Source: Gammaproteobacteria bacterium
GTDB lineage: Bacteria > Pseudomonadota > Gammaproteobacteria > JAJPIJ01
NCBI GenBank assembly: GCA_022071965.1
Contig: JAJVIQ010000030.1
Coordinates: 1-53,407 of the forward strand
DNA length: 53,407 nucleotides
Reading direction: 5' to 3'
Shown here: piece by piece, positions 6,783 through 10,772 of the stretch
Layout of the letters: every line of letters begins with the position of its first letter
How positions within the stretch are numbered: position 1 is the first letter of the stretch
Notes under the pieces: generated by a model
Databases searched by the model: none
The model's input: only the letters and a program-made list of their open reading frames with translations
What the model was told of the DNA's origin: nothing
Made by a program: the position numbers and the translations under genes

Positions 6783-7169
6783 TTATTGCGTGACCGTCGT
6801 GCCTTCGACCGGCGCTGCCTGCGCGTCGATGATCAACACGCGATCGACGTCGATCTCGGGGCTCATCATGAAGTCCTTTTCGACTTCACCGTAGATCTCG
6901 ACGACGGTCTCCGGGCCGATGCGGTGCCTGGGGAAGATGTCTTCATCGATCTCGACCCGGATCTCCCCGCTGCCATCCGAGAACATGTACTTCTCGCTGC
7001 TGACCTGGCTGGTCAGACTGCCGCGCAGGACGACGTACTGATCGTCGACCGAATTTTCGAGCACGGCCTTCACGTTTTGCGTCGAACCCTTTGCGCCGGG
7101 GCCGAAATACTGCGCGGACGCGAACGGTGCAACGGCGAGCAGCGTGGCAAGTGCGATGGATCGTTTCAT
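6783..7169 (-). CDS. YgiW/YdeI-like exported OB-fold (BOF) protein
   Basis: 128 residues with a signal peptide (MKRSIALATLLAVAPFASAQ, cleavage about residue 19). The mature part reads STQNVKAVLENSVDDQYVVL, KYMFSDGSGEIRVEIDEDIF and ETVVEIYGEVEKDF, the typical bacterial OB-fold of the NirD/YgiW/YdeI stress-tolerance family. E. coli members are periplasmic and linked to peroxide, cadmium and acid stress; their ligand is unknown. An AGGAGG-type site lies just upstream of ATG 7169. It is convergent with the LysR gene and not obviously part of an operon. Confidence 0.85.
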   Translation of the reverse strand: MKRSIALATLLAVAPFASAQYFGPGAKGSTQNVKAVLENSVDDQYVVLRGSLTSQVSSEKYMFSDGSGEIRVEIDEDIFPRHRIGPETVVEIYGEVEKDFMMSPEIDVDRVLIIDAQAAPVEGTTVTQ

Positions 7170-7475: not shown

Positions 7476-7502
7476 GACAAGGGGGCCCGGAGGCCCCCTG
7501 TC
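7476..7502. terminator. Strong hairpin terminator after pqqA
   Basis: GGGGGCC and GGCCCCC (7481-7487 and 7492-7498) form a 7-bp GC stem with loop CGGA, extended by GACA/TGTC outside a one-base bulge. It begins 28 bases after the pqqA stop on the minus strand and would separate pqqA from anything downstream. The downstream T content is moderate on both strands. Confidence 0.6.
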
Positions 7503-7529
7503 AATATTCAGGATGAATACGGGTGTCGC

Positions 7530-7604
7530 TTAGCGGTTGCTGATGTACATCGTGACTTCGAAGCCAAAACGGACATCGCTGAAAGCAGGGGTTTCCCAGG
7601 ACAT
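7530..7604 (-). CDS. pqqA: Coenzyme PQQ precursor peptide PqqA
   Basis: A 24-residue peptide beginning MSWETPAFSDVRFGFE and continuing VTMYISNR. It matches the PqqA pattern (W, P-A-F, R-x-GFEVTMY, N-R): E16 and Y20 of the EVTMY core are the Glu and Tyr that PqqE and later enzymes cross-link to make pyrroloquinoline quinone, the cofactor of periplasmic alcohol and sugar dehydrogenases. GGAGG lies 8 bases before ATG 7604; an in-frame ATG at 7610 would give 26 residues but with too short a spacing. Only a terminator-like hairpin follows; no pqqB-E genes are in this window, so the rest of the pathway must be elsewhere if PQQ is made. Some genomes carry extra pqqA copies. Confidence 0.88.
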   Translation of the reverse strand: MSWETPAFSDVRFGFEVTMYISNR

Positions 7605-7887
7605 GTTCATAACCTCCGGTCGAATGTATCGTTGAAAATCGCTGGTGCTCACTTGGACTTGGTGCAGCCCGTGTGCCAGCTTCGAGAGTCCGCGACGGCA
7701 TCACGCAATACCAGTGAGTTATCAATGTGTTGAGTTGCCACGATGACACGGCTGCCGGCCCCCCTTCACCCCGGCCCGGCCGCCGGTTGGCTGCGGAGAA
7801 CCAGCCATGTGGATCCCTGGAGCCAGTCTAAGCACCCCTGGATGCGTCCTTGATATCGCGTTCCAACCCGTCTGCAAACGCCGCCGG

Positions 7888-10440
7888 CTACTTTTTCAGG
7901 ACGCCTTCGATGCCGCCGGCGATCAGGGCGGCGATGTCGGTCAGCACCAGGAGCGGACCGAGCCCGCGGCCCGTGACGAGGTAGCGCGGCTCCCAGACGG
8001 GATCGAATTTCTCCTTGAAGGCGCGCAGTCCGTGGAAGTTGTAGAAGTGCTCGCCGCGGTTGTAGAGCAGATGGCCGAAGCGATGCCAGAGCGGCGCGAG
8101 CGGGTGCCGTTCCATGCCCGACAGCGGCGCCACGCCCAGGCAGAAACCCTCGTAGCCCTCGGTCTTGAAGTGCAGGATGAGCCGGAGCAGCAGGAACATC
8201 ATCGCATCTTCCGGCGCATCGGCCGCGTGTCGCATCAGGTCGATGGCGGCCTGCTGCCGCGTGCCGGTGGTGAGCAGGTTGGCGAAGGCCACCGCGCGCC
8301 CCCGGTGGCGGAGCACCGCGACATCGAAGTGGGCAAGGTAGTCGGCGGCGAAGGCGCCCAGTGAAAAGCGCTTCTCGCGCGTGTTCTTCAGCGCGAGCCA
8401 GGCGTCGGAGATCGCGCCCAGTTCCCCGATCCGCGGCGGGACCGCGGCGCGCGGGATGATCTCCAGTTGCAGGCCCTCGCGCTCGCCGTGGCCGAGAATG
8501 TAGCGCATGCCCTTGCGGCGGGAGCCTTCGAGGGAGAACTCATGCAGAGGTACCGTCGCATACTCACCGATCTTCAGCGGCATGAGCCCCATGTCGAGAT
8601 ACGCGGGCAGGCTGGCCGGCCTGGTCTGGTAGAAGGCGACGCGGCCACCGTGCGCATCCGCGAGCTCGCGAAACCGCCAGCCGAGCTCCTCCATCGCACC
8701 GGCGGGGCCGACCGGATCGCCCAGCGCGATCCAGCTGGTGCCGCGGACGCCGTACATGAGGAAGGCGTCGCGGCTGTCCGGGAACAGCAGATGCTTGTCC
8801 CCCATCAGCACCACGTTCGCGTCGACGCCGGACTGCGCGCGCACGATGCCCTCGGCCAGATCCAGCTCCCCGGCGGTGGGCAGCGCGGGGCGCGGCGGCG
8901 GCGGTCGCAGCAGCCTCGCCGTGGCGATCAGCAGCAGGACCACCCCGGCGCCGAACACCGCCCGCAGCGATCGCGACGCCTCGGCGTCGTACTCGAAACG
9001 CCACCACAGCGTGTCGGCGTACTCGACGTGCTTGTAGGAGAATTGCGTGAACCAGACGACCGTGATCACCACGGCCACGATGGAAACCACCGTGCCGGTG
9101 GAGAACGGCGCATCGAGCAGCGCGGTCTTGCGATAGAACTGCCGGCGGCTGGCGTACAGCGCCGCGGCGCCCGCGGTCAGCAGCGACGCCTCCTCGTAAT
9201 CGAAACCTTTGAGCAGGGCGAAGACGCTGCCGGCCAGGCACAGGAGCAGGGCGAGCACGTAGGCGCCGTTGAGCTTGCGGTACACGCCGCGGGCCACGAT
9301 CAGCAGCGCCGATCCGGCGAGGGAGGCAAGCAGGCTCGAGGCCTCCACCAGCGAGAGCGGCACGAATGAAGGGATGAGGTGCATGCGGTGCGGGACGCCG
9401 GGCGTGGCGGTGGACAGCAGGAGCACCACGCCGTTGACGAACATGGTGGCGCCCAGCACGCTCGGGATCAGCCGGCGCCCGGCGGCGGCGAGCTGGCGTG
9501 CCGTGGCGGTGACCGGCTGCAGGTGCGGCGCGACCTCGCGCCAAGCCATCAGCATGGCGGCCAGCACCAACGGCACGAGGTAGTAGATGATGCGGTAGGC
9601 GATCAGGGACGCGGCGAGCGCGCCGGGGGCAACGGAGCCGTGCAGCCCGGCGAGCACGACGGCCTCGAAGGTACCGAAGCCGCCGGGGACCTGGCTCAGT
9701 ATTCCGGCGAGCAGGGCCACCGCGTAGACCGACAGGAACGCGGCAAACGGTATCTCCGGCCCTATCAGCACGTACAGGCAGGCGCCGGCGCAGCAGATGT
9801 CGACGACCGAAACGACCAGGGGCAGCGCCACATCGATCGGGCGTGGAAGGCGGACCGACCGGTTCGACAGGCGCAGGGAGCCGCCCGTGAGCCCGGCGAC
9901 GGCGACGATGGCGCCCACCGCGCACAGCAGCGCGTAGGCAAGGATGGTGAGCCCGGGCGCTGGCAGCCGCAGGAAACCCGCGACCAGCCCCGGATGCGCG
10001 AGCGTCGCGAACACGAAGACGGCGAGCAGTCCGAAGCTCAGGCAGATGAAGTTGTAAAGCGCGATCCGCGCGACGTCCGAGGCGTCGATCCCCGCCGGAC
10101 CGTAGAAGCGATAGCGCACCGAGCCGCCCGTCAGCGCGCCGAACCCGACGGTGTTGGAGATGGCATAGCTGCAGAAGGACACCAGCATGACGAAGCGCCA
10201 TGGCAGTTCGCGCCGGACATAGCGCAACGCCAGCCAGTCATAGCCGCTGAGGGCCGCGAAGCTGCCGAGCATGAAGGCGAGCGCCGCGAGGGCGCGCCCG
10301 ACCGGGATCGCCTGGACCTCGGCGAGCAGGGCGTGATAAGAGACGCTCGCCAGCATGCGGTGCAGGGCGAGGCCGGCTGCACCGAGTATCAGCAGTGACA
10401 CGAGGGGCGCCAGGCGCTGCCAGTGGAGGTCAGGGCGCAT
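7888..10440 (-). CDS. mprF: Bifunctional phosphatidylglycerol aminoacyltransferase/flippase MprF
   Basis: 850 residues. The N-terminal two thirds is a multi-helix flippase domain (for example ISNTVGFGALTGGSVRYRFYG and LLAGILSQVPGGFGTFEAV, conserved in MprF). The C-terminal part, from about residue 545, is the DUF2156 GNAT-like synthetase domain with DSRDAFLMYGVRGTSWIALGDP, RFSLGAFAADYLAHFDVAVL and FLLLRLILHFKTEGYEGFCLGVAPL. The enzyme moves Lys or Ala from tRNA to phosphatidylglycerol and flips the lipid outward, giving resistance to cationic peptides. The open frame starts 43 codons earlier, but those residues are not membrane-like; ATG 10440 gives the usual family length. No strong ribosome site is visible. 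Confidence 0.9.
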   Translation of the reverse strand: MRPDLHWQRLAPLVSLLILGAAGLALHRMLASVSYHALLAEVQAIPVGRALAALAFMLGSFAALSGYDWLALRYVRRELPWRFVMLVSFCSYAISNTVGFGALTGGSVRYRFYGPAGIDASDVARIALYNFICLSFGLLAVFVFATLAHPGLVAGFLRLPAPGLTILAYALLCAVGAIVAVAGLTGGSLRLSNRSVRLPRPIDVALPLVVSVVDICCAGACLYVLIGPEIPFAAFLSVYAVALLAGILSQVPGGFGTFEAVVLAGLHGSVAPGALAASLIAYRIIYYLVPLVLAAMLMAWREVAPHLQPVTATARQLAAAGRRLIPSVLGATMFVNGVVLLLSTATPGVPHRMHLIPSFVPLSLVEASSLLASLAGSALLIVARGVYRKLNGAYVLALLLCLAGSVFALLKGFDYEEASLLTAGAAALYASRRQFYRKTALLDAPFSTGTVVSIVAVVITVVWFTQFSYKHVEYADTLWWRFEYDAEASRSLRAVFGAGVVLLLIATARLLRPPPPRPALPTAGELDLAEGIVRAQSGVDANVVLMGDKHLLFPDSRDAFLMYGVRGTSWIALGDPVGPAGAMEELGWRFRELADAHGGRVAFYQTRPASLPAYLDMGLMPLKIGEYATVPLHEFSLEGSRRKGMRYILGHGEREGLQLEIIPRAAVPPRIGELGAISDAWLALKNTREKRFSLGAFAADYLAHFDVAVLRHRGRAVAFANLLTTGTRQQAAIDLMRHAADAPEDAMMFLLLRLILHFKTEGYEGFCLGVAPLSGMERHPLAPLWHRFGHLLYNRGEHFYNFHGLRAFKEKFDPVWEPRYLVTGRGLGPLLVLTDIAALIAGGIEGVLKK

Positions 10441-10772
10441 GGCCGGACGGATCTCGCGTGGGCATGGTGGGATCAGTATCCGCCAGATGATCATGGTCTG
10501 TCGCCATGACGCTGCGTCCCCGCCTGCCGCCGGATCGTGCCGGGCCGCAGGCACGACGGCGCAGGCCATGGCCTATCATGGCCAGGCTCTGATCCTGCAC
10601 GCGCGCCTGTGCGGCAATGAGGCGGCGCCGGTGACGCCGCTGGTCGCCGCCCCGCGTCGATGCGGCGCGTCTGGTGCCGGGATGGCGGGTGTGGGTGCAG
10701 ATGGCCGGTCGCCAACGGCCGGATCCCGACAGAACAGATCGGCATCGAGAACGAGTTCGTGGGGGGGCGCTG
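10441..10772. other. Divergent intergenic region upstream of mprF
   Basis: About 330 bases between mprF (minus) and the next plus-strand gene. The mprF frame remains open to 10569 but I treat that as leader. I see no conserved promoter or operator that I would defend. Confidence 0.4.

Follow-up and report, generated by a model that had tools for sequence, protein, structure and literature searches.

A stand-alone additional pqqA gene in a gammaproteobacterium that carries a complete pqqABCDE operon elsewhere in its genome

Our analysis indicates that the short pqqA gene in the window, by which we mean the whole stretch of 53,407 nucleotides analysed here, is very probably an extra pqqA copy, functional and monocistronic, that would provide a second supply of substrate for synthesis of the redox cofactor PQQ. 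The gene, its signals and its neighbours are the following:

7604..7530, minus strand: pqqA, coding for a peptide of 24 aa, MSWETPAFSDVRFGFEVTMYISNR (TIGR02107 and PF08042 matches, translation)
7617..7613, minus strand: ribosome-binding site GGAGG, located 8 nt 5' of the pqqA ATG and kept in G001:C46, contig C46 of a second species of the genus (read from the sequence)
7499..7480, minus strand: intrinsic-terminator-like hairpin AGGGGGCC-TCCG-GGCCCCCT, then TGTCATTTGT (terminator scan, folding)
7169..6783, minus strand: next gene downstream on the same strand, coding for a BOF (bacterial OB-fold) protein, non-pqq (PF04076, 69.7 bits)
10569..7888, minus strand: upstream neighbour, coding for an MprF-like lysyl-phosphatidylglycerol synthase, non-pqq (PF09924, 277.8 bits; PF03706, 41.8 bits)

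The gene reads on the minus strand from an ATG at 7604-7602 to a TAA at 7532-7530, and its product belongs to the PqqA family by both models used, with 48.2 bits for NCBIfam TIGR02107 (cut-off 20, E 6.4e-13) and 42.5 bits for Pfam PF08042 (cut-off 21.1). Since the E-value is 3.1e-11 in a six-frame profile search of the entire genome, the match lies far beyond chance, and a chance match as the origin of the gene is ruled out by the profile scores. PqqE cross-links a Glu-Tyr pair of PqqA whose residues are four positions apart. The translated window peptide carries Glu16 and Tyr20 in an E-x3-Y arrangement (E16 VTM Y20), which we take to be the pair cross-linked by PqqE. Another in-frame ATG occurs two codons upstream of 7604, and it is the less likely start because it lies only about 2 nt from the GGAGG.

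The earlier note had described an isolated PqqA gene with a good ribosome site, followed by a terminator-like hairpin and by no pqq gene, and this description was confirmed by the profile scores, the signals and a scan of the neighbours. The hairpin (7499..7480) forms 8 pairs 3' of the pqqA stop codon and is followed by a weak, T-poor tail; in the 800-bp region around the gene, 1 terminator-like site was observed versus 0.3 expected from shuffled sequences. A promoter scan of the region found no consensus promoter for the gene, and an alignment of the upstream regions of nine pqqA copies gave no clear common element. In the profile scan, no pqq gene adjoins the window copy, both same-strand neighbours being unrelated to the pathway, and the gene does not belong to a pqqABCDE operon, as what lies 3' of it is the terminator-like hairpin and then the BOF gene. 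We also considered an operon truncated by a contig end; the gene lies 7.5 kb inside the contig, flanked by two other genes, and it is therefore not the head of an operon cut by the assembly. The window copy thus has what defines a stand-alone extra pqqA: it is alone, it has its own ribosome site and terminator-like hairpin, and the full pathway is found elsewhere.

The source genome (G000; 3.56 Mb in 39 contigs, 98.7% complete) was searched for the remaining pathway genes and for PQQ-dependent dehydrogenases, and both were present. On contig C3, a pqqA is followed on the same strand by pqqB, pqqC, pqqD and pqqE, forming a complete pqqABCDE operon whose five genes, those of the processing enzymes included, all score above the cut-offs of their NCBIfam models. 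The operonic PqqA and the window PqqA differ at a single position, residue 9, which is Ala in the former and Ser in the latter. The genome holds three pqqA genes in total, the third being located on contig C11, where a divergent PqqA, MNWVDPAYCDLRLGFEVTAYVYVR (30.6 bits), heads a pqqADE cluster with pqqD- and pqqE-like genes next to it; neither pqqB nor pqqC was found beside this cluster. As for the users of the cofactor, the genome contains at least five PQQ-dehydrogenase-like genes, seen as five large PF01011 matches, and with the methanol/ethanol-type PQQ dehydrogenase model (cut-off 480) three of the four proteins scanned score above the cut-off (660, 672 and 647 bits) and one just under it (463 bits). 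Judged by its gene content, the source genome holds genes both to make and to use PQQ. Because it carries the C3 operon together with quinoprotein genes, the window pqqA is an additional precursor gene, and the suggestion of a surplus precursor gene made in the earlier note is borne out. That note had also named a pqqBCDE cluster with its own pqqA elsewhere, together with silence of the present site, as what would speak against a meaningful orphan gene; the cluster exists, on C3, and this is one half of that pair only.

The C11 cluster has features of its own. At this locus (L005, 5669-9790) the divergent pqqA and the pqqD-/pqqE-like genes are followed by genes for a small Urate_ox_N-like membrane protein, a class V aminotransferase and a DHODH-like protein, and the same type of cluster is conserved at G001:C1 (L052) and at G002:C23 (L048), G002 being a species of the sister genus. 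In G002, a second pqqC above the cut-off was seen at C23 119890-120576, about 12.5 kb from the pqqADE-type cluster, whereas pqqC was found once in the source genome.

In the second species of the genus (G001), the window copy of pqqA is present on contig C46 between the same neighbours, so that the orphan arrangement does recur in a related genome, and the shared gene order covers 13 reading frames over about 16 kb, which match at 82-95%. The pqqA coding sequence is identical in the two species at 75 of 75 bases. From the ribosome site through the hairpin the identity is 0.8-1.0 per 30 bases, whereas in the flanks it is mostly 0.5-0.7 upstream and 0.2-0.7 downstream. The neighbouring genes differ from those of G001 at 21-36% of their fourfold-degenerate sites; because the window pqqA has only 8 such sites, the absence of silent changes in it is weak evidence if taken alone. 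The hairpin reads GGGGGCC-TCCG-GGCCCCC in the window and GGGGCC-TTCG-GGCCCC in G001:C46, that is, bases have changed and the pairing has been preserved. This conservation between the two species argues that the window copy is likely to be used.

Within the family, the pqqA copy number goes from 2 to 4, and the two genera carry their extra copies at different places. Two species of the sister genus (G002 and G003) share a lone pqqA at a site different from that of the window copy, and G001 also carries another lone pqqA, on contig C10. The latter (L050, 6230-9980) is a third canonical pqqA, placed shortly 3' of a 1012-aa frame that by eye resembles an M16-type peptidase. At the end of the family's lone copies stands a GGGGCC...GGCCCC hairpin, followed in 3 of 5 by T runs; in the operonic copies, a different strong hairpin lies between pqqA and pqqB.

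To what extent is this arrangement peculiar to the group? In a survey of 276 sampled genomes of the class, in which a pqqA was called separate when its distance from pqqC exceeded 5 kb or when pqqC stood on a different contig, 41 genomes bear pqqA, and every one of these 41 also has a pqqC above the cut-off. Separate genes make up 38 of the 72 pqqA genes of this sample; at least one is present in 21 of the 41 pqqA genomes, 12 have both kinds, and in 9 all copies are separate, counts that contig breaks may somewhat inflate. A scan of the genome contigs with an exact DNA pattern of the pqqA start gave no match. A looser pattern gave, in named genomes, 82 stretches with 83 scored pqqA copies, drawn from many gammaproteobacterial genome bins; 33 of these copies are lone, 24 lie with pqqB, 9 have pqqCDE directly downstream without pqqB, and 17 could not be judged. 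Because this looser pattern favours one subgroup, the count in the 276 genomes is the fairer one. Three genomes of the survey stood out for other reasons: G150 has nine pqqA genes on several contigs and a single pqqC; G247 has a pqqC above the cut-off (C1 2486653-2487363) and no pqqA match, so that its PqqA is either divergent or was missed; and in G099 a pqqC match (C1 3097333-3098031) contains one in-frame TGA, which may mean that the gene is broken, that the sequence has an error or that the codon is recoded.

Stand-alone or multiple pqqA genes have already been published for Methylophilaceae, Hyphomicrobium (the genus of strain FJNU-6), Methylosinus and Methylorubrum, and the window copy adds one more case to an arrangement already known; because of these cases, and because 21 of the 41 sampled PQQ genomes have lone copies, the unusualness implied by the earlier note does not hold. 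Strain FJNU-6 combines pqqABCDE and pqqADE with separate pqqA genes, three in number (pqqA3-5), the same three kinds as in our source genome, and expression was highest for the operonic pqqA and one separate copy, pqqADE being nearly silent (PMC9851590). Its three lone copies have known expression, whereas the source genome has one lone copy, known from sequence. In Methylosinus trichosporium OB3b, pqqA is, like the window copy, short, monocistronic and separate from pqqBCDE, and it is transcribed far above pqqBCDE; there it is the only pqqA found, whereas the window copy is additional (PMC3615186). In the Methylophilaceae, one pqqBCDE set is accompanied by 3-12 pqqA copies, versus 3 in total in the source genome, and one of their genomes has a divergent pqqDE with an adjoining pqqA (PMC4109929). 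Several pqqA genes per pqqBCDE, as in the source genome, are also described for Methylovorus MP688, where PqqA supply is reported to be rate-determining (Ge et al. 2015, as cited in PMC11317620). In Methylorubrum extorquens AM1, the orphan pqqA2 and pqqA3 are, like the window pqqA, lone copies with the full pathway elsewhere; their response to the lanthanide source has been measured, in contrast to the window copy, and the authors suggest that orphan pqqA may take part in lanthanide uptake (PMC11317620).

The full operon on C3, which includes a pqqA, and the variable number and position of the extra copies in the family could also be explained if the window gene were a redundant, functionless duplicate, the remnant of a duplication before decay. 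We consider this unlikely, because the ribosome site, the coding sequence and the hairpin form an island of conservation in diverged intergenic DNA; the hairpin has in addition retained its pairing despite base changes in G001:C46, and lone copies recur in about half of the PQQ genomes sampled. A scattered pathway, in which the window gene would be the main or only copy and serve a distant pqqBCDE, was among the options of the earlier note, and such genomes do exist, as judged by the 9 of 41 with all pqqA genes separate (to which contig breaks may add). In the source genome, however, the C3 pqqA directly precedes pqqB, pqqC, pqqD and pqqE, and this complete operon refutes the scattered arrangement there, leaving it next to no probability.

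The lanthanide response of the two Methylorubrum extorquens orphan genes (PMC11317620) would fit a peptide, or a cross-linked product, with a role other than PQQ synthesis, such as signalling or the handling of lanthanides. The earlier note had left room for another role, and we found no positive support for it: the window peptide is almost the same as the PqqA of the operon and keeps the features of a PqqA substrate, none of the 41 pqqA genomes has pqqA without pqqC, and the MprF-like and BOF neighbours give no pointer to such a role, which we regard as very improbable. We would give an equally slim chance to the related idea that the cell retains the lone PqqA, or this peptide in cross-linked form, for metal handling or for regulation of the pathway and for that reason regulates it apart from the operon.

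We therefore favour an extra copy that serves PQQ synthesis. In such a scheme, the window pqqA would be transcribed from its own putative promoter and translated from the GGAGG, and its transcript would be ended by the hairpin at 7499..7480. As a substrate, the peptide would then feed the PqqD-PqqE complex and, after it, the PqqB and PqqC of the C3 operon, which also encodes PqqD and PqqE, its use by PqqE being presumed. In PQQ synthesis one peptide is consumed per cofactor, and the enzymes are reused; for this reason a separate supply of PqqA makes sense in a cell with several quinoproteins. A separate short transcript could raise the supply of precursor independently of the enzymes, and the extra dose may serve the several PQQ-dependent dehydrogenases.

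What does this gene mean for PQQ synthesis in the class? The principle of a separate precursor supply is already published, and the case in the window matters mainly as annotation: pqqA is far below the usual gene length cut-offs and is often missed, so that counts of PQQ precursor genes easily come out too low. About half of the pqqA genomes in the class sample have a lone pqqA, which suggests that a separate supply of precursor is widespread, beyond methylotrophs.
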